From contig CALFOT010000010.1 in assembly GCA_937919925.1 (NCBI GenBank), forward strand, positions 1 to 64,000: a stretch of DNA of 64,000 bases. The letters are read 5' to 3'. Under the pieces are notes generated by a model. That model was given only the letters and a program-made list of their open reading frames with translations. It ran no database searches and was not told the DNA's origin. Source of the DNA: an uncultured bacterium. GTDB taxonomy: Bacteria; Planctomycetota; UBA1135. Shown here piece after piece: positions 5,540-56,868 of the stretch. Positions within the stretch are counted from its first letter, which is position 1; every line of letters begins with the position of its first letter. The position numbers and the translations under genes are program-made.

Positions 5540-6244
5540 ATGCCCCGCGTCTACTCCAACGATGCCCCGCGCCGTGCTGCTGCGGAGTGCCTACTTGAGG
5601 GGATGCTCGAAGCTGGCCTAGCAAGCATTCATCGTGTTGCCCCGGCTCCTCCGCTCCCAGCCACCACCTCCAGTGCGGAGGCCCTTTCTCTTGGTTTGAT
5701 TGCTGCGGCCGTCGCCAGCTGTCAAAACTGTGATCTTTGGCGTAACCGCACCACCGCCGTGCCTGGAGAAGGTCATGCCGCAGCCCGCCTGATGTTTGTT
5801 GGCTTAGCTCCGGGGGCGGAGGAAGACCGCCTCGGACGCCCGTTTGTGGGCCCAGCTGGCCAATTGCTCGACAAGATCATCGAAAATGGCATGAAACTGA
5901 CGCGCTCCGAGGTTTTTTTTAGCAATCTCGTCAAGTGCCGGCCGCTTCATGACGGCGCCCCCCAAGAGCAGGAGGTCGCTCTCTGTTCCAACTACCTCAC
6001 ACAGCAGATTCACGCGATTCAGCCCGAGCTCATCATCGCCCTGGGGCTCCCGGCAGCGCAATTTCTGTTGCAAACCAGCGCCCCAATCGCGGCAATCCGC
6101 GGAAAAATCCACCAAAGACCGCAAGACGGCCCCCCTATCCTAGTGACCGATCACCCTGCCTCCTTGCTCCTGGAACCCTCACGGAAAGCCGAATGCTGGG
6201 CGGATATCCAGGTTGCCATGCGTTTTCTGGGTTTGCCTGCGTGA
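5540..6244 (+). CDS. Type 4 (iron-sulfur) uracil-DNA glycosylase
   Basis: Removes uracil from DNA in base-excision repair. Support: cluster cysteines in SCQNCDLW and KCRP plus ALCSNY; the active-site block FVGLAPGAEEDRLGRPFVGPAGQLLDK (family form GExPGxxED); and the leucine-loop motif TDHPASLLLEPS near the C-terminus (family form HPSxLL). Length is 234 residues, with ~60 extra N-terminal residues that look disordered and Ala/Pro-rich. It stands alone on the plus strand, divergent from the der operon. Confidence 0.93.
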   Translation: MPRVYSNDAPRRAAAECLLEGMLEAGLASIHRVAPAPPLPATTSSAEALSLGLIAAAVASCQNCDLWRNRTTAVPGEGHAAARLMFVGLAPGAEEDRLGRPFVGPAGQLLDKIIENGMKLTRSEVFFSNLVKCRPLHDGAPQEQEVALCSNYLTQQIHAIQPELIIALGLPAAQFLLQTSAPIAAIRGKIHQRPQDGPPILVTDHPASLLLEPSRKAECWADIQVAMRFLGLPA

Positions 6245-6468: not shown

Positions 6469-9042
6469 ATGCGCCCTGATAGGAAGAAACTGTTGCTCCC
6501 ATTTCTGCTTCTCGGTGCTTGCACTTCCCCGCAAGCAGAGATTGAAGATGGCCAATACCAACTCGCCGATGATGCTCCACAAATGGTAGAGCAAGACCCG
6601 GGTCAGCAAGAGGCTAACGCCGGTAGTGCTGCCCAGCTCATTCGCGCGAAAAGTGAAAAGAACGCCCTGGTTGCCCAGAGCTATGTTGACATGGGTGCTG
6701 ACGCTTTCGAGCGCGGCGACTTTGTCGGCGCAGGTGTTCACTACGCAGAGGCAGCCCGCCTTGATCCAAGCAGCGTGGCTGCCCGCGACGGAATGCGTCG
6801 TGCGCAACTTGCTTCCGCCGGTCAGCCTTACGACATTGACTCCGCAGAAAATGCCTTGGAGACCGCAACCCGGCGTGCGAGTGCCCAACGTATGCGCGTC
6901 GAGGGTTTGGTGCGCGAAGGTGATATCGCCATGGGCCAAGGCGATTTCCAAACTGCCGTCGAACGCTACACCATGTCCACCCAGGCATTGTCGTTCAACC
7001 CGAACTTGGCTTACGGTTATTTGGAAACCGGCCTAGTTCAGAGCAAACTGGATGAAGCTGTTGCGGCCCGCAACTCCGCGGATTTAGCGAATCGCGCAGC
7101 AAACATTCAAGGTGCTGCTGCTGAGGCTGCTGCCACCGTGGAAGCCCGCAGTGCTTACAGCGCAAACCTCATTGCCAGCCACCTCGACGACGCCAACGAG
7201 AAGTTCCTACAAGGCTTCCCTGGTGAGTCCGTCACCATTCTTGATCGTTTGCTACGGATTGATCCGGGTAACGAGGATGCTATCTACTTGCGCAGTGTTG
7301 CGCTGGAAGCTTCTCACCAGAACCGCCAAGACAGCACCGCTGCTCGGTTCAGTGAAGAATGGCAACGCACCTTCGAAGTGCTGCGTCACCAAACTGCGCC
7401 GCCAAATGGCTCCTTCAATTTCGATAAGGACTATTGGGAAAATGTAGTTTCGATCCGTAAGCCTCTCGACCAGGTCGAAGTCGATGTGACCATGGATCCT
7501 GTTGAGGCTGCCATTCGCTTCGCCTTGGCGGATACCAAAATTGTCCCCAACTTTGATGGCACCCTGGAAGAGATCGTGCCAAACCTGCAAGCTTTCACAA
7601 AGGTGAACTTCCAGCTTTCACGTGCCGTCCTTGACGACATTGAAGAAGACGTCAAAACCATTCGCCTGCCAATCAAGCAAGCCATGAGCGTGGATCGCAT
7701 CCTGCGCATCATGGAAGACTTGATGGGTAGTCAGGTGAAGTTTGTAGTTCGCCACGGAGCTGTGTGGGCCTTAACTGCTGAAGAAGCGGATACCGAGGCC
7801 ATCACCAAGCTTTACGAAGTGCGTGACATTGTGCGCCCGGTCAAAGACTTCCCACTTGGTGATTACAATCTCAACCCATCCGGCGGCATCGATTCCGAGG
7901 CAGAAGAATTGCCGGAGCCGGAAGCCACCATTCTGGGTGATGATGATTTGATCACGATGATCACAGAATCGATTGCCCCAGATTCCTGGGACGGCGAAAA
8001 CCACTCCGCAGCCATCGAAAGCGGCAATCTCATCGTGCACCACAATCCTGAAGTGCAAGCGGAAGTGGCGCAAATGCTCGAAGATTTGCGCGTGCCCGCC
8101 AACATCATGGTGGACATCAAAGTGCGTTTCATGCGCGTGGAAGATTCCTTCCTGCAAGATGTCGGCGTAGACTTCCGCGGCCTCGGTAACGATTCCACTT
8201 CTGGCGCAGCGGGCAAGGGCGACGATCTCGTCTTCGACGATTTCGGCAACAACTTTGGTTCCGCTGGAGCTCCTGGCCGGATCGGCACCGGCGCCGACAG
8301 CGGCATGATTTATCGGGAAGCCAACAGCGACGTCACGATTCTTGCACGCACGGAGAACCTTTACGACTCCAGCCTCGGTGGCGATGGCATCATGACCAAC
8401 GCTGGCGGTTTGGCCATGCAGTACACCTGGCTTGACGATACCCAGCTGGAAATGGTTCTGCGGGCTGTGCGCAAGTCAAAACGCTCCGAGCTAGTCGTGG
8501 AGCCGAGCTTGATGGTGTACAACACCGCGCGCGCCAACCTAGTGGTAGCGAACCAAGTCTCCTACATCTCAGACTTTGATGTTGAGATTGCTTCCAACGC
8601 TGCCATTGCTGACCCAATCGTCAAGGTTGCCAACGATGGCGTGTACTTGGATGTTCGCCCAGTGGTCACTGCTGACCGGCGTTTTGTTTGGATTGACGTC
8701 CGCCCCACCGTCGCCAACCTGAAGCGTCCTATTGCGACTCTGCAAACTTCACTCGGTGTCGGTTCCCCGGTAACTTTGATGCTGCCCGAACTGGAGCTGC
8801 AGAAGATTCGCACCCGCGCGATTCTGCCTGACGGCGGCACTTTGCTGCTCGGCGGCATGAACGTCATCAAAGAACAAGAAATGGTTACTGGAATCCCCTT
8901 CTTGAGCTCGATTCCGGTGCTTTCCTTCTTCTTCTCGCGTAAAGGTACCTACGAGTCCTACCAGAAGCTGATCATCCTGCTGACGGCACACATCATCCTC
9001 CCCGAAGAGTACGAGCCGGAAAAACTGCCGGCCGGCTTCTAG
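6469..9042 (+). CDS. Secretin-family outer-membrane lipoprotein with N-terminal TPR repeats
   Basis: An 857-residue secretin. It starts with a lipoprotein signal (LLLGAC, Cys18). Residues ~65-275 are helical repeats of TPR type (DAFERGDFVGAGVHYAEAARLDP, IAMGQGDFQTAVERY, LLRIDPGNEDAIYL). About residues 338-430 hold a short secretin/TonB N-terminal-like domain (LQAFTKVNFQLSRAVLDD ... VKFVVRHGAVWAL). An N3-like domain and the pore follow from ~520 (VDIKVRFMRVEDSFLQDVGVDF), ending with the secretin signature DGGTLLLGGM ... VTGIPFLSSIPVLSFFF ... LIILLTAHII. Secretins form gated rings in the outer membrane. No type II or pilus ATPase is next to it; instead TPR, ExbB and ExbD genes follow on the same strand after a terminator. 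Confidence 0.92.
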   Translation: MRPDRKKLLLPFLLLGACTSPQAEIEDGQYQLADDAPQMVEQDPGQQEANAGSAAQLIRAKSEKNALVAQSYVDMGADAFERGDFVGAGVHYAEAARLDPSSVAARDGMRRAQLASAGQPYDIDSAENALETATRRASAQRMRVEGLVREGDIAMGQGDFQTAVERYTMSTQALSFNPNLAYGYLETGLVQSKLDEAVAARNSADLANRAANIQGAAAEAAATVEARSAYSANLIASHLDDANEKFLQGFPGESVTILDRLLRIDPGNEDAIYLRSVALEASHQNRQDSTAARFSEEWQRTFEVLRHQTAPPNGSFNFDKDYWENVVSIRKPLDQVEVDVTMDPVEAAIRFALADTKIVPNFDGTLEEIVPNLQAFTKVNFQLSRAVLDDIEEDVKTIRLPIKQAMSVDRILRIMEDLMGSQVKFVVRHGAVWALTAEEADTEAITKLYEVRDIVRPVKDFPLGDYNLNPSGGIDSEAEELPEPEATILGDDDLITMITESIAPDSWDGENHSAAIESGNLIVHHNPEVQAEVAQMLEDLRVPANIMVDIKVRFMRVEDSFLQDVGVDFRGLGNDSTSGAAGKGDDLVFDDFGNNFGSAGAPGRIGTGADSGMIYREANSDVTILARTENLYDSSLGGDGIMTNAGGLAMQYTWLDDTQLEMVLRAVRKSKRSELVVEPSLMVYNTARANLVVANQVSYISDFDVEIASNAAIADPIVKVANDGVYLDVRPVVTADRRFVWIDVRPTVANLKRPIATLQTSLGVGSPVTLMLPELELQKIRTRAILPDGGTLLLGGMNVIKEQEMVTGIPFLSSIPVLSFFFSRKGTYESYQKLIILLTAHIILPEEYEPEKLPAGF

Positions 9043-9056
9043 AACCGGGAAACCGA

Positions 9057-9091
9057 ACGGCCGGGGACGTATACACGTCTCCGGCCGTTTT
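9057..9091 (+). terminator. Intrinsic terminator after the first secretin gene
   Basis: ACGGCCGG (9057-9064) pairs with CCGGCCGT (9081-9088), extended inwards by GACGT/ACGTC around the loop ATAC, followed by a short T run. It sits 15 bases after the secretin stop and 45 bases before the next start, so it either ends the transcript or acts as an attenuator that sets secretin levels above those of the downstream genes. Confidence 0.85.
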
Positions 9092-9135
9092 CAATCACAC
9101 CGAGAACGATTCAGCCCTTCATCACATCATCTGGC

Positions 9136-11970
9136 ATGCTAGCCCTCTGTTCCGGATTCCTACTTAGTCTTCTGGCGTTACCGCAAAGCGGCGTCGACAA
9201 CATGGCCCTCAAAAATGCCAACGCGGCACGGGCTATCACTGAAGAGTTCAGTCTCGACTATTGGTCAGAGAAACTCCTCGAGCGCGCCCTAGCGGAAACC
9301 CATGGCCCAGAAGGCCGGTCGGAGTTGCTACTTGCCCGTTGCGATGTGCTCCGCCTCAAGGCGGGTCGCAAGATTAACGACGATGAGCGCCTACCTGCTC
9401 TTGGCGATGCCGGCACTGCGTATGTGGAATACCTTGAAAGTAGCCCGGGTGCTGCACGCACGGTTTTAGCGCAGAAGAACCTTGGGGCGCTATCGAAGAT
9501 GTATGGCGAAACCTTGGTGCGCCTCATCGAAAATGGAGACATTCAAGGTGAAGAGCGTGCTGCAGCGGTTGTGACTGCAGAAGCTATTTTCAAAACGGCG
9601 CTCGTGGGCATGAACACCGTGGTCAGCGATTGGGAGAAACTAGATGACGAAGATGAAGAGAAAAACTTCACCCGCTACACCGTCTATTTCCCAACCGTGT
9701 TTAACCGCGCCATGGTTTACCTTTATTGGTCCCAGCTCCACGAACCCGGTTCCTTGGAGCGCAACCAGCGCGCCAACCAAGCTTTGGAGGCCTTGGGCGA
9801 TTTCGCAATGGGTGCACCTTTTCTACAAGCACAATTGGCGTATAAGGCCATGGCGGACTGCTACGTCGCGCTTGGCTCCTACGGAGAATCTACCGATTAC
9901 TTCGATTACGTGCTTGGCAATATCACCCAACTACTTCAAGAATCGGGCTCTGAGCTAAGCCAAGACTACATCGATCTGCTGCACGAGGTCGTGCAAGAAA
10001 CCGACCACGGCTTAATGAAGATGCTCCTACTCGCCGGCAACGTGAAACATTTTTGGGAAATCTACGATGGCATGATCAAGTGGACTACCGAAGAGCGCAT
10101 CGAGCTCAGCCGCCCCGGCTATGAAGCCATGCTCACGGCCGCTTTACAAATGGTGAATGAAGGCCGTGCCATCGATGCGATTGAACTTTCCAATCGCATC
10201 GCCGAGGCCAATTCGAATAGCCCATTACGTCTTCAAGCGAATGCAGTCATGGGACGTGCGATTGCCATTGCCCCGCCGGATGCCGACATTCCGCTCGATG
10301 TACTCTACGGTGCAGCCGAAGGCGCTTTCTACCAAAAAGATTACAGCGCCGCGGTCGACGGCTTCCGCATGCTCATTCCGCGACTTGCCGGTTCACGCGA
10401 CGCCGATTTATACGGCGCCCACGCGTATTACTTGCTTGGTCTTTCCTGGGCCAAGCTTGACATGCCGATGCTGTCTGCCGTGGCCCACCAAGTTGGTTGC
10501 CTCGATTACAGCGAAGATGAAGATTGGACCCTGAAGAATGCACAGAGATGGCAAGCTGCTGCCGAGCGCTTCACCAACCTTGATCCCGCCGACAAAATCC
10601 TGCAGGCCTTTAATGAAGATGCTGTACAGGCGGTGGTGGACAACGACGGTGGTGGCGATGATTTGCAATACAAGCAAGCCAAAGCCGCGCACGACGCTGC
10701 CAAAAAAGCCGCGCGGGCCAAGGCAAATGATGCCGATATGGCACGCCTGTATAAAAAAGCCATCGCTCTCTACAAGGTGGTTCCGAAGGAGAGCTCCAAA
10801 TATGAGCAATCTCTGCTCGGCATTGCCATTTGTGAAGACGAAAGCATCGCTTTTGATCCCTCTGCGGCGGCCCGCGCGGAAACTCTGTTAAAGGCTTTCC
10901 TCAACGTCTATCTTGCCGATCCAGCCAATGCACCGCAGGATCCACGCCAGCGGAAAGTGCGCAAAGAAAGTGAACCGGCGGCAAATTTTTACCTCGGACA
11001 CACTTATCGCGCTATGGCCAAGGCTGGAGATATGTCTGCTTGGATGAAGGTACTGCAAACCTTTGAAGGGATGGTTGAGAAGTTTCCCGATCAACCAGGG
11101 CTTACTCACGCGGGAATGAGTTATCGCGTGGAGGCATTCTTAGAGCTCGACCAGAAGGCGGAAGCCCTCTCCGAGTATCAAACCATGCTGGCGCTCCCGG
11201 CCGATAAGTCCCGTTTGTCCATCGCAGCCTATTACATTTACCAGTACTACAGCGATCAGGTGGCGCAGATTGCTCCGGAAGCAGAAGACGATGCGTATTG
11301 GATTGCCAAAGGTTTCCAAGCCAAATACTTAGCCGATTACAATCGTTTCAGCCGTAACCCGGCTCTGTCGAACCTGGTCAGTGAAGCCGATTTGTGGGCT
11401 GCACTGGGAGAATTCGAAAAATCCGCAGCACTGTTTCAACTGGTGCTTGATAACTACACCAAGGATTCCAGCTATTCCGCAGCCGTGCATTTCAAGGTGC
11501 GTATGGGCTTAGTGGAATCGCTGCTGCAAATCAACAAACTGGGGGCTGCGATTCCTTTGGTTGAGGAACTCGCCGCGGAAAGTCCCAAGAACCTGCGTGT
11601 CATGATTGCGGTGGTGAAAGTCAAAGCTGGCTTCCTCGTTTACGAAAAAGGGAAAGTGATTGAGGTCCCTGGAGAGGGCACCAAAGAAGCTCTTGAGCAA
11701 GCAACCGAGATGGCTACCCTGCTGCTGAAACTGGCCGAAAACGATGCTGGCAAGGAAAATCCGCCAGTTAACTATTTTTACTTCCCCTCCTGGTGGGAAG
11801 CCAAGTTGATGCATGGCTATGTTTTGTATCAACGCAACTTGACGGTGGCAGAGGATGTTGGCAAACATAAGAAGATGGTCGAAAGCCTGCAACGACAAGC
11901 TCCCCTGCTTGGCGAGAAAGTCGTCGGCAAACGTATGTCCGAATCCCTTCGTTGGCTCTTGACCCACTAG
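9136..11970 (+). CDS. Large exported TPR-repeat protein
   Basis: A 944-residue protein with a cleavable signal peptide (CSGFLLSLLALPQSG) and otherwise mostly alpha-helical repeats. TPR-like units are seen at several places, for example AALGEFEKSAALFQLVLDNY, GAFYQKDYSAAVDGFRMLI and NFYLGHTYRAMAKAGDMSAWMKVLQTFEG. A lysine/alanine-rich helix is seen near residue 515. It is likely periplasmic and a scaffold for protein contacts. It is followed after 4 bases by a second TPR gene and then by the ExbB/ExbD motor genes, which suggests a role in the same machine (inference). Confidence 0.85.
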   Translation: MLALCSGFLLSLLALPQSGVDNMALKNANAARAITEEFSLDYWSEKLLERALAETHGPEGRSELLLARCDVLRLKAGRKINDDERLPALGDAGTAYVEYLESSPGAARTVLAQKNLGALSKMYGETLVRLIENGDIQGEERAAAVVTAEAIFKTALVGMNTVVSDWEKLDDEDEEKNFTRYTVYFPTVFNRAMVYLYWSQLHEPGSLERNQRANQALEALGDFAMGAPFLQAQLAYKAMADCYVALGSYGESTDYFDYVLGNITQLLQESGSELSQDYIDLLHEVVQETDHGLMKMLLLAGNVKHFWEIYDGMIKWTTEERIELSRPGYEAMLTAALQMVNEGRAIDAIELSNRIAEANSNSPLRLQANAVMGRAIAIAPPDADIPLDVLYGAAEGAFYQKDYSAAVDGFRMLIPRLAGSRDADLYGAHAYYLLGLSWAKLDMPMLSAVAHQVGCLDYSEDEDWTLKNAQRWQAAAERFTNLDPADKILQAFNEDAVQAVVDNDGGGDDLQYKQAKAAHDAAKKAARAKANDADMARLYKKAIALYKVVPKESSKYEQSLLGIAICEDESIAFDPSAAARAETLLKAFLNVYLADPANAPQDPRQRKVRKESEPAANFYLGHTYRAMAKAGDMSAWMKVLQTFEGMVEKFPDQPGLTHAGMSYRVEAFLELDQKAEALSEYQTMLALPADKSRLSIAAYYIYQYYSDQVAQIAPEAEDDAYWIAKGFQAKYLADYNRFSRNPALSNLVSEADLWAALGEFEKSAALFQLVLDNYTKDSSYSAAVHFKVRMGLVESLLQINKLGAAIPLVEELAAESPKNLRVMIAVVKVKAGFLVYEKGKVIEVPGEGTKEALEQATEMATLLLKLAENDAGKENPPVNYFYFPSWWEAKLMHGYVLYQRNLTVAEDVGKHKKMVESLQRQAPLLGEKVVGKRMSESLRWLLTH

Positions 11971-11974
11971 TTTC

Positions 11975-13054
11975 ATGATTCTTACTACCGCGCTACTACT
12001 CCCACTGCTTTTGCCAACGGCGCTGCCACAGAGCCGCGTACACAAGGTTGATGGTGGATTGGTCTCTGGAGAACTTACCGCTGCTGGCTTTGAAACTGTG
12101 GATCTCACGATTGGCGGCAAGAAGCGCAGTTTTGCTGCCGCTGAGATTCTGAGCCTGAGCCCTGGTCCTCTGCCCGAGCTCGTCCATAAAGCCGAATCCT
12201 TCTTCCTGGCCCACGATTTCCAAAATGCTGCCAACAGTTTCGATGCTGCCGCAGAAGCAGAAGCAACTGCTGAGGGCGCCTTTTGGTTGCGGTCGTGGGC
12301 AAAGTTACGCCACGCAGAAACTCTACTGGCGTGGTCAGCAACCGATCGCGGGCGAGCAGGCGACGCCGCCAAAGCGTTTCGCACTTGGTCTAGCGACAAC
12401 GCCGACAGCTTCTGGTTGCCGCGTGCGCAAATGGGCCAGGCGAAAGCCATGGCCATGTCGGGAGATGTCGACGGCGCCACGTCTTTGATGCAGCGGCTTT
12501 CGGATACCGCTTTCGAAAAAAACCTCGGGCGCCATGTGGAGCTGCATGTCAACCTAGTGCGTTGCGAGGCGTTTTTAGTTGGTGGTCAAGCCGAAGTTGC
12601 CCAAGCGCGTTTACGCGATTTGGTTGTCAAACTGGGTGAAGCGGTGCAATCCCCCGAAACTCCATCCGGCAGTAAATCTCTGTTCAGCGGTCTTTACTCA
12701 CAGGCTCAGATTCTGCTCGGCAACGCCATTACCGAAAAAGATGGCGGCCGCGCTGCGGCCACCTACTGGCAGAGCCTTGCTCAAGACCGCAATGTAAGCG
12801 CTGATGTGCGCGCTGCGGCATGGATTGGGATGGCTCAGAATGCCCGGGAGCAAGGCCTAACTCGTGAAGCACAACTCCAACTTGCCAAAGTTGTTGCGAC
12901 TCTACCGGCAAATGACGAGCTGATGGCTCGCGCACTTTTTGAGCTCGGTGAGATTTCTAAGGAGTTAGGGAATAACCCAACCTCCGGAGATGCTTATCAT
13001 CAACGCCTACTAAAGCGCTACCCCAACACTTCTTGGGCAGCCAAGGTCCGTTAA
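11975..13054 (+). CDS. Exported TPR-repeat protein
   Basis: A 359-residue protein with a signal peptide (LTTALLLPLLLPTALPQS). A short beta-rich section comes first (RVHKVDGGLVSGELTAAGFETVDLTI), followed by TPR-like repeats: ESFFLAHDFQNAANSFDAAAEAE, AMSGDVDGATSLMQRL, NAREQGLTREAQLQLAKVVATLP and LGEISKELGNNPTSGDAYHQRLLKRYPNT. The last repeat resembles those of YbgF/CpoB and BamD type proteins. It lies 4 bases after the large TPR gene and ~120 bases before exbB. Confidence 0.85.
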   Translation: MILTTALLLPLLLPTALPQSRVHKVDGGLVSGELTAAGFETVDLTIGGKKRSFAAAEILSLSPGPLPELVHKAESFFLAHDFQNAANSFDAAAEAEATAEGAFWLRSWAKLRHAETLLAWSATDRGRAGDAAKAFRTWSSDNADSFWLPRAQMGQAKAMAMSGDVDGATSLMQRLSDTAFEKNLGRHVELHVNLVRCEAFLVGGQAEVAQARLRDLVVKLGEAVQSPETPSGSKSLFSGLYSQAQILLGNAITEKDGGRAAATYWQSLAQDRNVSADVRAAAWIGMAQNAREQGLTREAQLQLAKVVATLPANDELMARALFELGEISKELGNNPTSGDAYHQRLLKRYPNTSWAAKVR

Positions 13055-13092
13055 TCCCTAAGTCAACGGCAACTCAAGTCCAACTGCTGAGT

Positions 13093-13114
13093 AACTACGC
13101 CATTGTGGCGAGTT
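13093..13114 (+). other. Stem-loop between the TPR and exbB genes
   Basis: AACT-a-CGCCA, loop TTG, TGGCG-AGTT (13093-13114) forms a nine-pair hairpin with one bulged A. A second small hairpin, GGAGC-AATC-GCTCC, lies at 13136-13149. Neither is followed by a T run, so they are more likely RNA-stability or processing elements than terminators. Confidence 0.45.
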
Positions 13115-13173
13115 GCTAGAATCCTCCTCTTCCCTGGAGCAATCGCTCCGAGTAACACTAGCGTCCAACTAAA

Positions 13174-13887
13174 ATGTCCCGATTCCGTTACCTCGTTCCT
13201 GCTCTGTTCGGTTTCCTCGCAACCGCCAGTTCCGTTCTTGCTCAAGGTGAACCTGCTGCCGATGACGGCACTGGTTTCCTCGCGGCCATCCAGAAATCAG
13301 GAACCATTGGTTATCTGATTATCCTGATGTCCGTGGTGGCCATGGCTCTGATCATCGAACACTTCATGACTCTCAAGCGCGAGAAGCTTGCGCCACCGGA
13401 AGTCATTGACGAGATTGAAGAACTCTTCCAAGAAGGCAACTACCAAGAAGCTCTGGTGGCCTGCGAAGCCACCCCATGTTTCTTTACCAACGTTACTGCA
13501 GCAGGCATCCGCAAGCTTGGCCACCACTTCGCTGCGATTGAAAAATCAATCGAAGAAATGGAAGACGAAGAAAGCATCAAGCTGCAGCAGAAAATTGGTT
13601 GGCTGTCGCTGATTGCTGGTATCGGCCCAATGATGGGTTTGTTTGGCACGGTTACGGGAATGGTTGGTGCGTTCGCAACTATCGGTTCTGCCGGAGCTGG
13701 TGGTGTCAACCCCGCAGACTTCGCAGCAGACATCTCTTTGGCACTGATGACCACCGTACTCGGTCTGACCGTGGCAATCCCTACCACTGCATTCTACGCC
13801 TACTTCCGCAACAAGGTCACGATGACCTCGCTGGAAATCGGTGCTGTCGTTGAGGATATGTTCGAGCGTTTCCGCGCTGCAGAATAA
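13174..13887 (+). CDS. MotA/TolQ/ExbB proton channel family protein
   Basis: A 237-residue inner-membrane motor subunit. Its N-terminus looks like a signal peptide or extra helix (LVPALFGFLATASSVLA). Then comes membrane helix 1 (GYLIILMSVVAMALII), a cytoplasmic domain, and the paired helices 2 and 3 with the family signature LSLIAGIGPMMGLFGTVTGMVGAF and ALMTTVLGLTVAIPTTAFYAYF. With ExbD-type partners such proteins turn proton flow into mechanical work across the periplasm. Two exbD genes follow directly. No tonB gene is seen in the island. Confidence 0.95.
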   Translation: MSRFRYLVPALFGFLATASSVLAQGEPAADDGTGFLAAIQKSGTIGYLIILMSVVAMALIIEHFMTLKREKLAPPEVIDEIEELFQEGNYQEALVACEATPCFFTNVTAAGIRKLGHHFAAIEKSIEEMEDEESIKLQQKIGWLSLIAGIGPMMGLFGTVTGMVGAFATIGSAGAGGVNPADFAADISLALMTTVLGLTVAIPTTAFYAYFRNKVTMTSLEIGAVVEDMFERFRAAE

Positions 13888-13953
13888 TTTAGCGCTGAAA
13901 ACCGTTACCCTGTGAACATCCACGACCTAGTTTGAGCTGAGGCTCTACAACCG

Positions 13954-14577
13954 ATGGCAAAACGCACTGCAAATACCGAAATCGAAATCGACATGACCCC
14001 CATGATCGATATGACTTTCCTGTTGATCATCTTCTTCATCATCGTAAACGATATGTCGCAGAAGGATCTGGAGGAGCTGAAGTTGCCCATCGCCATGGAA
14101 GCTGGTCACGATGAACCGCCAGAGAACCGCCCCGTACTCAACGTACGCTGGTTCCCTGCGGGAGGTGTACCGGATTCGGTCATCGCTCACTACAAAGAAT
14201 TGGGCATTGGCATCCCTAGTGATCAGGAGTGGTCGGACATCGTGTGGAAGCGCAATATCCTCTACTACCCGTTTATGGATACCAAAGGGCTTACCGATCC
14301 CATCCGTAAGGGGCGGCCCGACTACTACTGGAAGTTGGCGGAAACCATGCGGCTTGTGTGGGTCCCGGAAATGGCCACCAAGATGGATGACAAGTTGAAG
14401 AGGATTTTGCCCGATGACCCGATTCTGATTCGGGCCGACCGCAACACCCCATTCAAATACATCCAGAAAATCATGGAAGTATGTACCCGCGAAGGCATTC
14501 AGATTTGGAAAGTGCAGCTTGCTGCCTCGGAAGATCCAAAGATTGTCGATGCCCGTGAAAAAGCCAAAAGGAAATAG
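13954..14577 (+). CDS. ExbD/TolR family protein, enlarged (first copy)
   Basis: A 207-residue partner of the ExbB-like channel. One N-terminal membrane helix follows the motif IDMTPMIDMTFLLIIFF, with the proton-carrying aspartate at residue 19. The periplasmic domain ends with the usual fold signature ILIRADRNTPFKYIQKIMEVCTREGI. Standard ExbD is ~140 residues; this one has some 40-60 extra residues between the first strand (VLNVRW) and the final ADRNTP block, including WSDIVWKRNILYYPF. It ends with a basic tail. It starts 66 bases after exbB and is followed after 11 bases by a second copy. Confidence 0.92.
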   Translation: MAKRTANTEIEIDMTPMIDMTFLLIIFFIIVNDMSQKDLEELKLPIAMEAGHDEPPENRPVLNVRWFPAGGVPDSVIAHYKELGIGIPSDQEWSDIVWKRNILYYPFMDTKGLTDPIRKGRPDYYWKLAETMRLVWVPEMATKMDDKLKRILPDDPILIRADRNTPFKYIQKIMEVCTREGIQIWKVQLAASEDPKIVDAREKAKRK

Positions 14578-14588
14578 AGCTTAATACC

Positions 14589-15113
14589 ATGGCTAAAAAG
14601 AAGAAGAAATTCGAAGAGATCAAACCAGACATGACGCCAATGATTGACGTCACGTTCTTACTGCTGATTTTCTTCATCGTTACGCTGAAGTTCAAGGTAC
14701 TTGAGGGGCGTCTGGACGCCGCCCTACCCAAGGACCGCGGCTCCAGCACTGCGAAAGAGGAAGAGATTGAAAAGATCGATATTCAACTCTATGTTGCCGA
14801 TCCTGGTGACCTAGACTTCGAAATCGATGATAAGAATAAAGTTACCAACCTCAAGGTTTTCTCCGGTCGCAAGATTCGGATTGAGGTCGGTACCCAAAAA
14901 TGGTACTACGAGCCATTCGATCCCAACCGCGATACCCAAAACCCGCTCCCCGAGCTTGCCACTTTCTTGAAGACCTTTGATAAGGATGAAACCCCAGTCT
15001 CCATCGATGCGCGTAAAGGCATCGTATACGGTGACGTGGTGGTGATTCTCGACGTCATCGTGCGCGCCAAGTTCGAGCAAGTTTCCTTCGCTGGTACGTT
15101 CGAGCAAGAATAG
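14589..15113 (+). CDS. ExbD/TolR family protein (second copy)
   Basis: A 174-residue ExbD-type protein. It has a lysine-rich N-terminus (MAKKKKKFEEIKPD), the membrane motif MTPMIDVTFLLLIFFIV with the key aspartate at residue 20, and a periplasmic domain ending VSIDARKGIVYGDVVVILDVIVRAKFEQVSF, split here as the end strand-helix-strand of the ExbD fold. The acidic stretch DLDFEIDDKNK has no counterpart in standard ExbD. It differs clearly from the first copy, so the motor is probably hetero-oligomeric. A strong terminator follows 47 bases later. Confidence 0.92.
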   Translation: MAKKKKKFEEIKPDMTPMIDVTFLLLIFFIVTLKFKVLEGRLDAALPKDRGSSTAKEEEIEKIDIQLYVADPGDLDFEIDDKNKVTNLKVFSGRKIRIEVGTQKWYYEPFDPNRDTQNPLPELATFLKTFDKDETPVSIDARKGIVYGDVVVILDVIVRAKFEQVSFAGTFEQE

Positions 15114-15160
15114 AGCATTTTGCAGCGCTGCAGAAGGAAATCACGGTTCCTTAATCCCAA

Positions 15161-15195
15161 GACTGCCCCTCGGCCCACCGAGCGGCAGTCTTTTT
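15161..15195 (+). terminator. Intrinsic terminator of the exbB-exbD-exbD operon
   Basis: GACTGCC (15161-15167) pairs with GGCAGTC (15184-15190); the inner stem CTCGG/CCGAG closes the loop CCCA, and TTTTT follows. Confidence 0.9.
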
Positions 15196-15502
15196 CATTT
15201 TGGCCCACTTCGCATCCTTTTCGCTGCCTAGCGGGTCTACACAGGCTTTTGGGGATGAATTTGCCAATTTACCTGCTACCGCGCTGCAAAACCGAACTAC
15301 TTAACGCAACCGCCTAGCGGCCATCCATGCGCCACTTTTTGGAACTCTTCAGAGTCCCGAACATCTGACCACAAAAGGGCGTAGCGTGGCTCCGCTGGCG
15401 CTGCTACATTCTTCCCGTGCCCATCGTCCGAAAGACGGTAGCCGGGGTCTGACGGTTGACTAACCGCCTGCTCCGGCAACAGCTTGGAAAACCTGCATTC
15501 CC
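15196..15502 (+). other. Intergenic region upstream of the second secretin gene
   Basis: About 300 bases without a supported gene. It must hold the promoter of the second secretin gene because a strong terminator precedes it. A small CGTC-cgaaa-GACG hairpin lies at about 15428-15440. TTGACT occurs near 15459 but lacks a convincing -10 element at the right distance. I see no confirmed riboswitch. Confidence 0.5.
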
Positions 15503-18145
15503 ATGAAGAGAACCCTTAAATCGGCTGCGTGCCTTTCGCTTCCTTTCGCCCTCATTGCTTTCAGTTGTGCATCTTCTGAAAGCCCAGATGACACCAATTC
15601 CGCAGCTGCGCCTCACTCGGCGTCTAGCGATGCGCCTTTGTTTGTAGGCACTGCACAAGAGCCTGGCGATTCTGACCTTCAACAAGGTATTCAGGCCAAG
15701 AGCCTGCGTGATCAGAAGACTGCCATGTTGGTCAATGAACACGTCCGTCGCGCGCGCATGGCATACAGCGATGCACGTTTGCTGGAAGCCGAAAATGAGT
15801 TAGTGGCTGCCTTAGGCTTGGACAACTCCTCGCAGGAAGCCCGCGCCCTTCTCGAAGATGTACACGTTGCTTTAGGCAAAGCCGATACCAACATTACTGG
15901 TTCTTCCAGCGATGTGGTGCTGGCCACCCAGGCGCGCGCAGAACGTAGCCGCGCAGATGCCCAAGGCAACTTGACCGCTGGCCGCAACTACTTGAATGAA
16001 GGCAACTACAACGTTGCCATTGGCAAGTTGCGCCTCGCCAAGAGCGCCATCGATGGTTCGAGTTTGCAGATTGCTTGGGGTAGTATGACGGATGAAGTCA
16101 ACACCCTGCTTGCACAAGCCGAAGCCGAGCGCGATTTGGCCTTAGCAGCCCAACGGAGCGATGAGCAGTTCGCCACCTTTGAAGCTCTCCAAGGCCAACG
16201 TCGGATGGAAATCGAACGTCGCAACTTGCGCCTCGATGCCATGTTGGTGGATGCCATTGGCGCCTTCGATGCCGCAAAATACGATGATGCCATCACCCTC
16301 TGTGAAGACATCATCCGCGAAGATCCTCTTTACGGTCGGGCACGCGAATTGAGCGATGCTTCCCAAAAAGCTCGCCACACCAACGTCGAACAGAAGTGGT
16401 TGGAGCAGCGTTCCGAGCGGTTCCAGGATTGGCAGGAAGATGTTGATGAGGCACGCATTCTCAACAACAACATCATGACCCTTCCAGACCCAACTCACTG
16501 GAAGCAGATTTCAGAGCAACGTCTGCGTTTCCGCGAGACGCAAACTGGAGGTGCTGATTCAGAGCTCAACCTGCAGTTGCTGGAAGACATCAACACCCAG
16601 CGGATTCCGAGTCTGATCTTCGAAGGGGAAACCTCTCTCGATACGGTCATCGACCAGCTGCGTACCTTCACCAGCATTCCTTTCGTGATCACTCCGGATG
16701 CCATCGAGGCCGTGGATTCCGCAGGTATTGAGTTCAACCTCAACATGACCCACGAACTGAGTGTTGCCAATGCCCTCAACATCATCACCGATGTGGCAGG
16801 AACAGGTGTCACCTACACCTTCAAGCACGGCGTGGTCTATATCACTTCCACTGCTAAAGCCCACGGTAACCTGATTCTAAGGCCACACGAAGTACGTGAC
16901 TTAACCGCTCTGGTGGTGGACTTCTCCGGTCCAAAACTCGATGCCATCCGCCTTCCAGATGAAGAGTACAACGACGAAGACGGCTCCGCTTTCGGCGGTA
17001 CGATTGGCGAAAGCCTGCCGATGATGGATCCGGATGCTTTGGCTGCTTTGGTGCAACAGAGCGTGGCCACCTCCACTTGGGATACCGTTGAGGGCGCTTC
17101 CATCGTGCACATCAACGGCCAACTGTTCGTGCGTCACACCCCTGAGGTGCACCAGGAAATCGAAAACTTCCTGGAAAAATTCCGCAGCTACACCTCTTCG
17201 ATGGTCAACATTGAAGCGCGCTTCCTCACCATCACCAATGATTACTTGCAGGAAATCGGCATTGACTGGCGCGGCAACGGCGGCAATGGCAGTACACTGG
17301 ATCTCGTCAACCTTGATGATGTCACTTCGGGCTTCGATGACAACTCTTCCCTAGGTCTGGACAACAACGGTCCTGGCTTGCCCTCTGGTGCAGATTCCAA
17401 CCCATCTGCGGGAGCTTACTTCGATGAGTTTAGCGACGGCGATATCCGTGCCCGTACGGAGAACATCCTTGGCTCTTACGGTTCCCGCTTGGGAACCACC
17501 GGTGGCCTCGCGATGCAGCTGTCCTTCCTGGATGACCTGCAATACAGCCTGATTCTGGAAGCCGTTGAGAAAAGCCAAAATGTGCAAGAGTTGACCAGCA
17601 CTTCGCTGTCTGCTCAAAACACCCGGCGCGCTTACGCCACCATGCTCAACCAAATCACTTATGTGCAAGACTTTGATGTTGAGGTGGCGCTGGCAGCTTT
17701 CATCGCTGACCCTGTCATTGGTGTGATTAGCGACGGCATCGTTCTGGATGTACGTCCAACCATTTCGCAGAGCCGCAAGTACATCACTCTGGAGTTACGC
17801 CCCACCATCGCCACCATCGTGCAGCCCATCACCGAGTTCACCTCGTCGCTGGCAGCACTTACCGTGCCGATTACCGTGCAACTTCCAGAGCTGCAGATTT
17901 CGTCAGCCAACACCACGGTGGTGGTACCTGACGGCGGCACGGTGGTGATTGGTGGTTTGAAGAAACTCTTCAACATTGATCAGCGCGCAGACATCCCCTT
18001 CCTTTCTGACATCCCGGTGCTGAGCCTGTTGTTCAAGAAAGAGGGCGAAGCTGAGGAGAACCGCGACATCATCCTGATGATTCGCGCAGAGATCGTCGAT
18101 GCCAACGAAATGAAGGCCGCTCTCGATACTAGCCTCGGTCGCTAA
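15503..18145 (+). CDS. Second secretin-family outer-membrane lipoprotein
   Basis: An 880-residue paralogue of the secretin at 6469. The signal ends in a relaxed lipobox (AFSC, Cys22). Helical TPR-like repeats occupy about residues 70-290 (RMAYSDARLLEAENELVAALGLD, YDDAITLCEDIIREDP). A short secretin N-terminal-like domain follows (LRTFTSIPFVITPDAIEAV, ITDVAGTGVTYTFKHGVVYI), then the N3-like domain and pore (VNIEARFLTITNDYLQEIGIDW, IADPVIGVISDGIVLDVRP) and the signature VVPDGGTVVIGGL ... DIPFLSDIPVLSLLFK ... IILMIRAEI. The same architecture flanking one ExbB/ExbD motor suggests two related outer-membrane channels, possibly with different cargo (inference). It has its own terminator. Confidence 0.92.
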   Translation: MKRTLKSAACLSLPFALIAFSCASSESPDDTNSAAAPHSASSDAPLFVGTAQEPGDSDLQQGIQAKSLRDQKTAMLVNEHVRRARMAYSDARLLEAENELVAALGLDNSSQEARALLEDVHVALGKADTNITGSSSDVVLATQARAERSRADAQGNLTAGRNYLNEGNYNVAIGKLRLAKSAIDGSSLQIAWGSMTDEVNTLLAQAEAERDLALAAQRSDEQFATFEALQGQRRMEIERRNLRLDAMLVDAIGAFDAAKYDDAITLCEDIIREDPLYGRARELSDASQKARHTNVEQKWLEQRSERFQDWQEDVDEARILNNNIMTLPDPTHWKQISEQRLRFRETQTGGADSELNLQLLEDINTQRIPSLIFEGETSLDTVIDQLRTFTSIPFVITPDAIEAVDSAGIEFNLNMTHELSVANALNIITDVAGTGVTYTFKHGVVYITSTAKAHGNLILRPHEVRDLTALVVDFSGPKLDAIRLPDEEYNDEDGSAFGGTIGESLPMMDPDALAALVQQSVATSTWDTVEGASIVHINGQLFVRHTPEVHQEIENFLEKFRSYTSSMVNIEARFLTITNDYLQEIGIDWRGNGGNGSTLDLVNLDDVTSGFDDNSSLGLDNNGPGLPSGADSNPSAGAYFDEFSDGDIRARTENILGSYGSRLGTTGGLAMQLSFLDDLQYSLILEAVEKSQNVQELTSTSLSAQNTRRAYATMLNQITYVQDFDVEVALAAFIADPVIGVISDGIVLDVRPTISQSRKYITLELRPTIATIVQPITEFTSSLAALTVPITVQLPELQISSANTTVVVPDGGTVVIGGLKKLFNIDQRADIPFLSDIPVLSLLFKKEGEAEENRDIILMIRAEIVDANEMKAALDTSLGR

Positions 18146-18254: not shown

Positions 18255-18986
18255 CTAAACGGGAATCGCGTAGGAATCGCGCAGTAATTGGCGCAACTCA
18301 ACAAACTCATCAATCACATGTGTTGGCTTACTGTGCGGCAGCAAAGCCGAATACTTGCCCGTGCCGCGCAACCAGACGGTGCGAAGTCCAGCAGCATTCG
18401 CTGTATCAACGTCATGATAAGGGTGATCGCCCACATGCATCACATGATCGGCCTCGACACCGGCGCGTTCCACGCAGCGTTGGAAAAGCCGCGGGTTTGA
18501 TTTGGCAATGCCCACTGCATGAGTTATGAACAGCAGCTCTTTATCGAGAAAGCGATCAATCCCCAGGCGCAAAATTTTCTCTATTTGCTTGTGCACCAAA
18601 CCGGCACTGATGATTCCTAAGCGCAGCGGCGTGGCGGCTAAGGCACGCAGAAGGTCTTCGGCCTCCGGCCTAATCCGTAATTCTTGCCACTTGGTATTGT
18701 GATAGGCAATCACCCCCGCTCCGACTAATAAATCGTGGTTGGCGCCGGCCACACAACTAGCAGGCAAACGCTGCAACAAACGGTTGTAATGGTGATCATC
18801 ATTGCTGCCAAACTCCGCCACAACTTCGGCCAAAGACTGTAAGACTTGCCCCGGCTCGGCAAGCAAGCCGCGCTCAATCATGGCCGCTACCGCAGCGGTG
18901 CGCGCCTTCTGCACAAAGTCCGTAGTGCCAAAAAGCGTGTCGTCGATATCAAGGAAAAGAACCTTGAGGTCGGGAGTGTCAGTCAC
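18255..18986 (-). CDS. HAD-superfamily hydrolase (subfamily IA type)
   Basis: A 243-residue phosphatase-like enzyme. Motif I is FLDIDDTLFG near the N-terminus, motif II is LGIISAG, the motif III lysine is in GIAKSNPRLF, and motif IV is HVGDHPYHDVDTANAAGLRTVWL. A helical cap of ~70 residues lies after motif I, as in subfamily IA. The substrate cannot be told. The GTG start overlaps the stop of the ABC ATPase gene by four bases (GTGA), so the two are probably coupled. Confidence 0.9.
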   Translation of the reverse strand: MTDTPDLKVLFLDIDDTLFGTTDFVQKARTAAVAAMIERGLLAEPGQVLQSLAEVVAEFGSNDDHHYNRLLQRLPASCVAGANHDLLVGAGVIAYHNTKWQELRIRPEAEDLLRALAATPLRLGIISAGLVHKQIEKILRLGIDRFLDKELLFITHAVGIAKSNPRLFQRCVERAGVEADHVMHVGDHPYHDVDTANAAGLRTVWLRGTGKYSALLPHSKPTHVIDEFVELRQLLRDSYAIPV

Positions 18987-46784: not shown

Positions 46785-49700
46785 TTACCAAGCGAAAGGC
46801 AGTTTGAAGTATTCAATACCAGGACGTTCCTTATCCACCGTTGGACCAGAATCCAGGGCGTCGATATTGAACGTGAAACGGTAACGAATGAAGCGCGAGC
46901 CATCGAGCGTAGCGAGCGTGGTGGTACCCCCGTCGCCAGTCCATGCGGTTTTGACCGATTCATCTGGAAGGTTGGTGCCCGTGAACGCCGTCGTACCTTG
47001 GAACTGAATGCGCACACTCGCCGACACAGGCAAGCGATCCTTGGTCGCTGAGGTGGAAATGCGGAAGAACTTCGAGCGCACCGCCCAACTTGCACTGGCT
47101 ACCAAAGCCATCGGCCCATCACTCACGCGGGTGTTCAGGATGAGGCGTTCGGGACTAGCCGTGTAAGTGGCTGACACAATCTCGAAGGTAGGAGGATTGC
47201 CCAACGCGGCATTGGGCAAGACATCGAAACCAATCATCAAGTTCGGGTTACGCAAGAAGTCTGCGGAGAAGGAACTCGATGGACTGGAAATGGTGACGGT
47301 GTAGTTTCCAAACACCGCGGTACCGGCTCCGCCATCGCTACCCACGGTGGCGCCTGCGGCAACGGTGTTAGCGGTTGTATTCACCAAACCAGTGTTCGCA
47401 TTGATGCCATCAAAGTGCAGCAAGCTGTCCAGGTAAGCTGGGTAAGTTCCAGAACCAGAGTTGACGCGATCACCAGCTAAGCCCGTGTCAATCCACTTCG
47501 ACTGCAATTGGGATTGCGGTGAGTAGAACGGAACCAAGGTGAAGGCTTGCGGCAAACTGTACAGACCTAAAATGGCATCCTGACGAGTCGAAATCGGCGG
47601 GTTGCTCAAATCCAGACCCGAAATGTACTGTTTAAAGGCCGCATCCACCGAGGCTGCATAAGTGATATCGGTTAACGGATTCGGCACGTGCACTTGAATG
47701 ACGCCGCTCGCACCAGCACCACCGCGACCGGTGTGGAAGGGACCGTTGCCATCAAAATCCACATCGTTCGAAGCACCGCCTTGGTTAAAGGTGGCTGCAG
47801 AAGCACTCAAAGCCCAACCGCGACGTCCACCAATGCTGCGCAGCACATAGTTCGGAGTGAGGTTGGCAAAGAAGGTTGCAGGGATGGCTGGGTTGCCCGC
47901 AGTGCCGACTGGAATCGCTGCGAGATTCAAACCCGTGGTGGTATGCAAAACCATGTGGCCACCAGAGCCGCCACCTGAGCCAGAAACTTGAGTCGTGGTA
48001 CCCGAAGTGGTGCCCTCGAAGGTTGATTCGCCACCGTGACCTGCGCCACCGTTGACTTTCAACACCGTGCCAGGGCCGAGAGTGATTGCGCCCAAGGCGT
48101 GAATCTGCACTTGCCCACCCCCACCACCGCCAGGAGCGCCACGGTAGTATGCCGGCGTGGCAGGGCCGTGATTAGGGAAGTTGACATCTGGCCAGTGAGC
48201 TATCAGCGGCAAAGGAATGCCAAGACCAGCGCCATTGTCGATGTAGCGCAGGATGGCCTGCAAATCGCCACTCGCGCCACCACCGGAACCGGCATAAGCG
48301 GAAAGCAATTCTCCAGTTACCAATACAGGATCATTGGCGAGGTTGCCGTCCCAGAAATAACGGGTGCCAAAGAAATCATTGGCCAAAGCGCCATCCGTGA
48401 AAACCGATGCTCCGCCGAGGCCGCCATCTGGGCCATTGGTAAGGCTGCCATACTGGTAGCTGATGGTTCCGCCGGCCGAAGTTTCTGCGATGTCGAAGAA
48501 GGCGGTATCAGATGCTTCGCCATCTTCAAGCAGGTCTTCATAACCATGTACCCCGTGAGGGAGAACCGAAGTTTCTAGCCTGCCTGAATCGCGCGCGGAA
48601 CCACGTAAACCTGCTTCTGCACCGGTAAAATAATCATTTGCATCCGGGGTGCCATCAAAGACGGTGTGACGATCCAAGCGGACGTCGGGGCCGGCATTAT
48701 CAAAGGTGAGCGGGTTGACTGCAAGCGACCACTGATCCCAGAAAACGGAATCCGTACGGCCCAATGCAAAACCACCGCCACCACCACCGCCAGCAACGAG
48801 GTAGGAAGCTGCAGCACGGATGGTGCCGCCCCCCGTAGCAGCTGGGTTAAAATACTGCTGGAAGCCACCTTCGCCACCTTGCCCCCCGCCCAGGGTGCCA
48901 TGGAAAGGACCGGAGCCTCTGGCACCGCGAATGGTGTAGCTATCGATGGTGGCGGAAGCATTGCCGCCCTTGCCACCACCACAAGCGCCTAAAGCGCCGG
49001 GAACCATCAATTCGGGATGGTAAGCACCGCCATCAGGAGCCGTTGCGTTGAAGCCACTGGCATCCAGAGTGCCAAGCAAACTGGCTTCACCGGCCACATA
49101 AATGATGAAGGGGTTTTCACCGGCAGCGCGCAGGGTAGCGCCCGCTGCGATGGTGAAATTGTTCACCTCAAGCACACCATCGGTAATGGTGAAGGTGCGC
49201 CCGTTGCCATCCGAGAAATCATGGCTACCGTCGTCGGTAGTCACAGTGAGTAGGCCTTGGTTCGCTGAGACCACCAAGTTGTGATCGGTGGACACCGCGG
49301 AACCAGGGAAAGCGAAATTGGCCGACAGTAAATTCGAGGCCACGTGCGCTGCTGGTTGCGGCAAGGAGGCTTCCAAATCTAGGCCGTTGGGGCCATCATA
49401 CTCATCACGAAAATCATCCAGGGTGACATCGGTTTCCGTGAAGCTTGGGCCAGCCGCATAAAGTTCTGCCAGAGTGGGCATGGCCACAGCTGCTGAAGTA
49501 AGCACCGCAGTGTTGGTCGAGCCGCCAATATCTTGGAAATCTGTAGAGGCCACAATACGAATCAAACGGCCTGGAATCAGCACACCACTAACCCGGAAGT
49601 GCAAAATCGCACCATCCCCGCAGTTGCTGACCACCAGCCATGCTCCGGGCACGACATTGCCGCTGGCTGGGAAAAGTGCACTACTATTGGAGTACTGCAC

Positions 49701-50363
49701 AAACAAACGATCCTCCGCAAGGTTGGCCGGTTCTGGGTTAATCGATTGATTAAACGCAACCACGATTTCCGTCCTTGCTTGAGACAGGAGTCCCAGAGAA
49801 TTCGGAATCGTAACGGAATCGAACGCAGGAGGACCGACAATCGTGTCCGCAAACAACGGTTCACCAATCTCTGGCGTTTTAAAGCGACGGCTCAGACCAA
49901 TTGCGAGCTGATGCCCTTGAGTGTCGCGCAAAATCGCGGAACCTTGATTACCTAGAATCGGAATCACCAACTCATAATTTTTCCCGCCGGGAATCAAGCC
50001 GCCATTCGTATTGGCTGCATTGGTTGGGCAGGAAGGCGTGAAGACAATGACACGATTGGGATTGCCGACAGAATCTGCCTTCAGTGCAAAAGTACCGGTG
50101 ACCGGAGAGCCAAGATTATTGGAATCCGTAGGGCGCAAAATTACCGAGCCAAAACCCACGGAAGCTGGATCAATGGCGCTACTGAAAACAATTTGGATCG
50201 GCCGGTTCAGTGACCAAATGTCGCCATCGCTCATGTTCGAGGTAAGAGCTTCGAACGTACCAAGGGTTGGCGAAGTTGATTTACATCCTCCAGCTGTGAC
50301 AGCACAAAGCGCAGCAGCGGCGAGAATGAGGTTACACAGATGGGGAAAGCGTGATGGGTGCAT
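46785..50363 (-). CDS. Giant glycine-rich Ig-like lipoprotein (B)
   Basis: A 1192-residue paralogue of protein A at 36518. The signal ends in TAGGC (Cys27). Ig-like modules come first (IQIVFSSAIDPASVGFGSVI, TEIVVAFNQSINPEPANL). Glycine-rich blocks run from about residue 455 to 890: GACGGGKGGNAS, AGGGGGGGFALG, GAPGGGGGGQVQIHALGAI, GSGGGSGGHMVLHTTTGL and GRGGAGASGVIQVHV. The C-terminal module ends with FIRYRFTFNIDAL and YFKLPFAW. Probably on the cell surface. Its ATG overlaps the stop of lipoprotein C (TGATG), so B, C and D form one operon. Confidence 0.85.
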   Translation of the reverse strand: MHPSRFPHLCNLILAAAALCAVTAGGCKSTSPTLGTFEALTSNMSDGDIWSLNRPIQIVFSSAIDPASVGFGSVILRPTDSNNLGSPVTGTFALKADSVGNPNRVIVFTPSCPTNAANTNGGLIPGGKNYELVIPILGNQGSAILRDTQGHQLAIGLSRRFKTPEIGEPLFADTIVGPPAFDSVTIPNSLGLLSQARTEIVVAFNQSINPEPANLAEDRLFVQYSNSSALFPASGNVVPGAWLVVSNCGDGAILHFRVSGVLIPGRLIRIVASTDFQDIGGSTNTAVLTSAAVAMPTLAELYAAGPSFTETDVTLDDFRDEYDGPNGLDLEASLPQPAAHVASNLLSANFAFPGSAVSTDHNLVVSANQGLLTVTTDDGSHDFSDGNGRTFTITDGVLEVNNFTIAAGATLRAAGENPFIIYVAGEASLLGTLDASGFNATAPDGGAYHPELMVPGALGACGGGKGGNASATIDSYTIRGARGSGPFHGTLGGGQGGEGGFQQYFNPAATGGGTIRAAASYLVAGGGGGGGFALGRTDSVFWDQWSLAVNPLTFDNAGPDVRLDRHTVFDGTPDANDYFTGAEAGLRGSARDSGRLETSVLPHGVHGYEDLLEDGEASDTAFFDIAETSAGGTISYQYGSLTNGPDGGLGGASVFTDGALANDFFGTRYFWDGNLANDPVLVTGELLSAYAGSGGGASGDLQAILRYIDNGAGLGIPLPLIAHWPDVNFPNHGPATPAYYRGAPGGGGGGQVQIHALGAITLGPGTVLKVNGGAGHGGESTFEGTTSGTTTQVSGSGGGSGGHMVLHTTTGLNLAAIPVGTAGNPAIPATFFANLTPNYVLRSIGGRRGWALSASAATFNQGGASNDVDFDGNGPFHTGRGGAGASGVIQVHVPNPLTDITYAASVDAAFKQYISGLDLSNPPISTRQDAILGLYSLPQAFTLVPFYSPQSQLQSKWIDTGLAGDRVNSGSGTYPAYLDSLLHFDGINANTGLVNTTANTVAAGATVGSDGGAGTAVFGNYTVTISSPSSSFSADFLRNPNLMIGFDVLPNAALGNPPTFEIVSATYTASPERLILNTRVSDGPMALVASASWAVRSKFFRISTSATKDRLPVSASVRIQFQGTTAFTGTNLPDESVKTAWTGDGGTTTLATLDGSRFIRYRFTFNIDALDSGPTVDKERPGIEYFKLPFAW

Positions 50364-53509: not shown

Positions 53510-53524
53510 TGATTCAGCCTAAGA

Positions 53525-56659: not shown

Positions 56660-56704
56660 CGTTCGGATTCTCGGTGGGACGGTCTGTTTCGAGGCGCAGA
56701 AGTC

Positions 56705-56756
56705 AGGACACAGGCCTTCTATATTAAAGCTGCGCCGAGTCCTTCGCCTGTGTCCT
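56705..56756. repeat. 11-bp perfect inverted repeat upstream of the giant lipoprotein operon
   Basis: AGGACACAGGC (56705-56715) and GCCTGTGTCCT (56746-56756) flank 30 bases with an AT-rich centre. It lies in the gap between pyrB and lipoprotein D, about 45 bases before the D start. The centre could hold a -10 element on the minus strand. A smaller palindrome, CTGAGGCGTCTCAG, lies nearby at about 56842-56855. Confidence 0.7.
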
Positions 56757-56868
56757 ATGAGCAAATCCCATACCAAGGCGCAGAGTGGGCAAAAAAGCTG
56801 CTTTAAGAAGTAAGACCGCCCACAGGGTGCGAAAGCGCACAACTGAGGCGTCTCAGGCTCCAAAGGAC

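Follow-up and report, generated by a model that had tools for sequence, protein, structure and literature searches.

In this work we are describing a seven-gene island, found in a stretch of 64,000 nucleotides from an uncultured planctomycete (the whole stretch is called the window here), in which two paralogous secretins enclose an ExbB-ExbD-ExbD motor and two TPR proteins. Secretins are understood as pores for ATPase-coupled export or for pili. On balance, we are inclined to read the island as a conserved trans-envelope TPR-secretin machine of Planctomycetota, which would be driven by the proton-motive force (PMF), is related to the MUL2 system of Akkermansia and probably serves the uptake of macromolecules such as glycans. 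If secretins are coupled to a motor of the PMF family throughout the phylum, this would be a new way of energising an outer-membrane gate, and the island may be a route by which large molecules, e.g. polysaccharides, pass the planctomycete outer membrane. It would supply a genetic candidate for the CCCP-sensitive entry of macromolecules into the planctomycete periplasm, as well as for the power source of the related glycan-uptake system of Akkermansia.

Gene content of the island

The island (6469-18145) comprises seven genes, all on the forward strand, in the order secretin A, Big, TPR protein, ExbB, ExbD1, ExbD2 and secretin B. The first six genes are separated by 93, 4, 119, 66 and 11 bp, and 389 bp precede secretin B. 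An ORF check of this interval showed that the frames named in the original prediction are real, and Pfam assignments together with these frames confirmed the composition it had described, i.e. two full-length TPR-liposecretins enclosing two TPR proteins, one ExbB and two ExbD on a single strand. It had also claimed that the island holds no ATPase, GspF or tonB, which agrees with our Pfam scan of the island proteins: no ATPase, GspF, pilin or tonB gene was recognised.

Secretin A (857 aa; 6469..9042, +; Pfam Secretin, 8.5e-24) is a liposecretin with orthologs throughout the order. It contains a lipobox cysteine (Cys18, nt 6520-6522), a TPR solenoid (aa 51-309), an N0-like domain (approximately aa 344-455), a ring-building motif (approximately aa 491-545) and the secretin barrel (aa 547-843). 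The next gene, Big (944 aa; 9136..11970, +), codes for a large, putatively exported alpha-solenoid protein which has no Pfam match of its own; it is assigned to TPR proteins on the basis of same-position orthologs in relatives, which match many TPR models. It is followed by a putatively exported TPR protein of 359 aa (11975..13054, +; Pfam TPR_2, 0.0025) with a short N-terminal non-TPR stretch and YbgF/CpoB-like TPRs, matching NCBIfam tol_pal_ybgF under the cut-off (9e-11) and having orthologs that match BamD/YfiO-type TPR. Export of both TPR proteins was judged by eye from their N-terminal hydrophobic segments.

The motor genes code for an ExbB/TolQ-type proton-channel subunit (237 aa; 13174..13887, +; Pfam MotA_ExbB, 1.7e-24) and two ExbD/TolR-type proteins, ExbD1 (207 aa; 13954..14577, +; Pfam ExbD, 2.7e-14) and ExbD2 (174 aa; 14589..15113, +; Pfam ExbD, 2.2e-17), whose transmembrane (TM) aspartates, Asp19 and Asp20, respectively, lie within a TPMID motif. 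Among NCBIfam models, TolQ and YbgF gave weak matches to island proteins, below the cut-off. The 389-bp gap (15114..15502) ahead of secretin B is gene-bearing in relatives. Secretin B itself (880 aa; 15503..18145, +; Pfam Secretin, 3e-22) is again a liposecretin, with lipobox Cys22 at nt 15566-15568.

Conservation of the gene order in Planctomycetota

Carriers of the island are uncultured aquatic planctomycetes, among which the gene set is conserved. Each of the 61 genomes sampled at the order level had a secretin-A-type match, as did, at E<=1e-30, 252 of the 294 genomes of the phylum sample, where the weakest matches may be ordinary secretins. To annotate the loci that were fetched we used HMMs made from genes of the window. 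Both secretins were found on one piece in 60 loci representing 21 families of Planctomycetota. ExbB-ExbD lay between them in 54 of these loci (18 families), and the exact order SecA-Big-TPR-ExbB-ExbD1-ExbD2-(x)-SecB was kept in 49 (16 families); in short loci of 8 more families ExbD or ExbB directly adjoined a secretin. The original prediction was to fall if the order was not conserved in relatives. It is conserved, and its recurrence in 49 loci of 16 families means that the arrangement is not due to chance; the gene order is ancient.

The motor was missing between the secretins in 6 of the 60 two-secretin loci, and three of these six genomes contain a diverged Big-TPR-ExbB-ExbD-ExbD module elsewhere. 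These modules (L069, L070 and L071, of genomes G051, G035 and G031) lie away from the secretins, which are adjacent to each other there. In families f32, f49 and f10, represented mostly by near-complete genomes, the twin arrangement was missing or single or weak matches only were obtained; the system is therefore not universal, and uptake in cultured model species does not have to depend on it. A search of plasmid sequences for carriers returned generic secretins only.

The two secretins

Secretins A and B are full-length paralogs (29% identity over 836 aa, E 3e-95), and their lipobox cysteines, C18 and C22, respectively, do not vary in the order-level alignments. A phylogeny of 148 sequences, with other secretins of the window's genome as the root, shows SecA and SecB each to be monophyletic (support 0.71 and 0.79); the retention of both thus predates the divergence of the lineages sampled. 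In the AlphaFold2 model of secretin A (mean pLDDT 77) a post-lipobox linker is followed by the TPR solenoid, the N0-like domain, the ring-building motif and the secretin barrel. The closest solved folds according to Foldseek are PilQ (6w6m, 1.6e-22), BfpB, InvG and GspD.

NCBIfam matches of secretin A were to MshL, PilQ, GspD and the Amuc_1098 family, each below cut-off, and those of secretin B to MshL (5.8e-31) and the Amuc_1098 family (2.9e-26), both below cut-off as well. The two island secretins did not reach the GspD equivalog cut-off (76 and 72 bits vs 351) and missed that of PilQ likewise by far. For secretin A of relatives the best NCBIfam match is the Amuc_1098 family (1.7e-41); best matches to this family score 67 to 142 bits vs a cut-off of 750, with the same architecture. 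An ordinary pilus-type secretin of the window's genome, used as a control, preferred GspD/PilQ as expected.

The motor and its possible TonB client

The closest solved structures of ExbB are TolQ/ExbB. The TM-Asp motif P-x-x-D is present in 60 of 61 ExbD1 and 61 of 64 ExbD2 proteins, and equivalents of TolQ Thr145/Thr178 were found by motif match in 62 of 65 ExbB proteins; the position of ExbB Glu176 is variable. Judging from these conserved TM-Asp and Thr residues, the motor looks active.

In the window's genome, which is 87% complete, the island genes are the sole PF01618 match and the sole PF02472 pair. The order sample included 18 genomes with a single ExbB, which in 17 could be placed in the island; 13 of the 18 carry TonB and 17 at least one TonB-dependent receptor (TBDT). 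In the window's genus TonB stands beside a TBDT with no ExbBD nearby. TonB was not found in the island or in the window's assembly, where a TBDT is cut by the contig end exactly at the place where TonB is expected to follow. The receptor loci of the genus (L154:1-1673, on contig G000:C75, and L153:7493-10356) are without exbBD, and in the window's assembly the adjacent tonB falls off the contig end. Since such TonB/receptor pairs have no ExbBD of their own in single-motor genomes, the motor is probably shared with TonB in lineages like that of the window, which the original prediction did not foresee. A motor dedicated to the secretins is a reading weakened by these unlinked TonB-TBDT pairs.

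Genes surrounding the island

In many other families the gap between ExbD2 and SecB is occupied by a sulfatase-fold gene with C-terminal TPRs (L085:12054-13967; equivalents in L086, L087, L091, L095, L098, L114, L120, L122 and L123). The active-site region of its product reads T-L-P-(S/A)-H vs the classical C-x-P-S-R, and the protein may therefore not be a sulfatase of the classical type. Other members of the window's family have a PLP decarboxylase in this gap, and the window has neither gene. On the other side of secretin B the window contains an adjoining HAD-family hydrolase (18255-18986, -); in other families, too, a HAD hydrolase is located 3' of secretin B, in most cases sharing its strand. 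Further downstream, three open frames of 1048 to 1192 aa follow one another (46785-56863, -).

Upstream of SecA many families have a PilM/GspL-like protein (PilM_2, up to 1.6e-43) and a TM-FN3-beta protein, sometimes also a single-TM PilO/GspM-like protein. The best match of the PilM-like protein of relatives is the Amuc_1101 family (5.2e-76, 257 bits vs a cut-off of 650). By sequence, then, the TPR-secretins and the PilM-like and platform proteins of relatives are nearest to the Akkermansia Amuc_1098-1101 system (MUL2). The model of the TM-FN3-beta protein (pLDDT 87) shows, besides a TM helix, an FN3 domain and one more beta domain. Its top Foldseek matches were all FN3-type folds, which left a GspC/PilP identity unconfirmed, therefore the name GspC-like refers to position and topology. 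A PilO/GspM identity of the single-TM protein (180-270 aa) was likewise not upheld, topology being its basis, with zero family matches.

Platform genes are missing beside the island in the window's genus, and a uracil-DNA-glycosylase-superfamily gene (5540-6244, +) occupies their position upstream of secretin A. A genome-wide search covering the C-type protein found no full-length C-type (TM-FN3) protein in the genomes of this genus; a PilM-like protein is present in the T4P-like locus of the window's genome. As the genus has no platform at the locus and keeps the rest, the platform can disappear from this locus without loss of the motor, the TPR proteins or either secretin, and so the retained core is the motor with the secretins.

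Other secretin systems in the genome

The window's genome contains three further secretins, on contigs C93, C36 and C92. The first is accompanied by GspE and GspF (gspDEF locus), the second belongs to a PilM-containing, pilus-like locus and the third forms a locus of its own. Topoisomerase VI B and A subunits adjoin the pilus-like locus (L079:1680-4541, on G000:C36). Each of the three loci has its own secretin, thus the island secretins are not required to complete them. A complete type II system elsewhere in the genome using both island secretins would have told against the original prediction; the gspDEF locus has its own secretin instead. Membership of the island in a type II secretion system, suggested by the presence of secretins, was rejected because of this separate locus and because the island is without ATPase and GspF. 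Every genome examined carries 3 to 14 GspE/PilB-type ATPases.

Discussion

The original prediction of a PMF-driven secretin machine holds in so far as the order is conserved and proton-channel-type motor genes, with no ATPase genes, stand beside the secretins; the motor, however, is probably not dedicated to them. For the working of such a machine we infer a stoichiometry of one ExbB/TolQ pentamer with an ExbD1/ExbD2 pair, which would turn the PMF into movement. Physical coupling would be provided by the two periplasmic TPR proteins and the N-terminal TPR solenoids of the secretins, passing movement to both pores: the TPR proteins may act on the TPR/N0 parts of the secretins and thus open or drive two different outer-membrane TPR-liposecretin pores. 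In many relatives PilM/GspL-like and single-TM proteins would build an inner-membrane platform for the same pores, and in window-like lineages the same motor probably serves TonB as well.

As for direction, we give uptake at least the same odds as secretion and favour it on two grounds: the system is akin to that of Akkermansia, and CCCP abolishes the entry of dextran into the planctomycete periplasm (PMC5394234), as observed in species that may or may not carry the island system. The likeliest job would be to bring large polymers, glycans being the most plausible ones, into the periplasm; glycans as cargo are suggested by analogy and by the sulfatase-fold neighbour, which is missing from the window itself. 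A stronger version, in which a rotary ExbB-ExbD1/ExbD2 motor rather than an ATPase-driven pilus operates two giant pores via TPR transducers and imports intact polysaccharides or other macromolecules, is possible, but we consider it doubtful.

The motor could be a general one of Ton/Tol type, merely co-transcribed with its neighbours, which powers TonB and the receptor, the function of the secretins and TPR proteins being independent of it. Such an arrangement would account for the 13 single-motor genomes with TonB, TBDT and no second ExbB, and for the TonB-TBDT pair standing alone in the window's genus (in the assembly of the window itself the position of TonB lies beyond a contig end). Still, we find it rather unlikely, as the motor is kept between the secretins phylum-wide, even where complete Ton loci exist separately (G006 and others), and neither two different ExbD nor a pair of TPR proteins belong to the standard Ton equipment.

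Lower still we place a variant of type II secretion or of the type IV pilus, whose PilM/GspL-like platform recruits GspE/PilB in trans and leaves ExbBD a side role. ATPases of this kind are available in all genomes, and PilM-like and single-TM platform genes lie upstream of secretin A in many families; yet the operon has no recognised ATPase, GspF or pilin, its secretins stay far from the GspD and PilQ cut-offs of NCBIfam, and the window's genus has kept motor and secretins despite the genome-wide absence of the C-type platform protein. Marginally less probable again is a machine for surface motility or adhesion like Myxococcus Agl-Glt, or an Agl-Nfs-like polymer mover, in which the secretins would serve as anchors or would guide a polymer. 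The make-up of one TolQ and two TolR matches AglR-AglQ-AglS, Glt has several TPR proteins (PMC3169522) and the Agl motor moves a carbohydrate polymer with Nfs (PMC3858216), but the island proteins include no Glt-type TonB-like or beta-barrel gene, and secretins, the outer-membrane parts of the island, are absent from Agl-Glt. A PMF-driven TPR-secretin machine thus remains the reading that we prefer.

Comparison with known systems

With the GspD/PilQ/MshL systems the island shares the secretin fold and, in relatives, the PilM/GspL-like platform; it differs in the N-terminal TPR solenoid, the twin secretins, ExbBD and an operon without ATPase, GspF and pilins. With ExbB-ExbD-TonB and TolQ-TolR-TolA it has in common the ExbB/TolQ and ExbD/TolR families with their motor residues, whereas two ExbD types, an operon without TonB/TolA and the linkage to secretins set it apart. 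The AglRQS-Glt/Nfs machinery of Myxococcus is PMF-driven and likewise joins one TolQ/ExbB and two TolR/ExbD to several exported TPR proteins (PMC3169522, PMC3858216). Its outer-membrane parts are beta-barrels and lipoproteins instead of secretins, and it has the TonB-like GltG; the TonB-like GltG/J and the beta-barrel parts GltA/B/H were not among the island proteins scanned with Pfam. In PVC bacteria a TPR-TolQ-TolR-TolR-vWA module is known, with secretins unmentioned in the accessible text of its description (PMC12204202). As described there, it resembles the island in its run of one TPR gene, one TolQ-like gene and a heterologous pair of TolR-like genes, and differs by its vWA transducer and, as far as that text goes, its lack of secretins. 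A vWA-transducer reading of the island was rejected, as a search for the MIDAS motif found no such signature adjoining the motor and one MIDAS-like signature in one locus.

The nearest known relative is the pilus-like Amuc_1098-Amuc_1102 cluster of Akkermansia. Its PilQ, Amuc_1098, is an outer-membrane secretin of 907 aa that bears TPRs at its N-terminus (PMC4960237). The genes of MUL2 (Amuc_1099-1102) are conserved among Verrucomicrobiales, and mul genes are required for glycan accumulation in Akkermansia (PMC13174399, PMC12418764). The two systems resemble each other in the architecture of the N-terminal-TPR secretin and, as regards island relatives, in having a PilM-like partner. The MUL2 locus, in so far as these sources describe it, has one secretin nearby, no ExbB/ExbD and no large TPR proteins; moreover, the matches lie far below the NCBIfam equivalog cut-offs, and the window's genus has no platform beside the island. 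In a literature search we found no work joining secretins and ExbBD as one machine. The original statement that no such system has been described was therefore too strong for the TPR-secretin and the PilM-like partner of relatives, which are nearest to Amuc_1098 and Amuc_1101; the novelty lies in what is added to these, namely an ExbB-ExbD-ExbD motor, a second secretin and TPR proteins of the periplasm.
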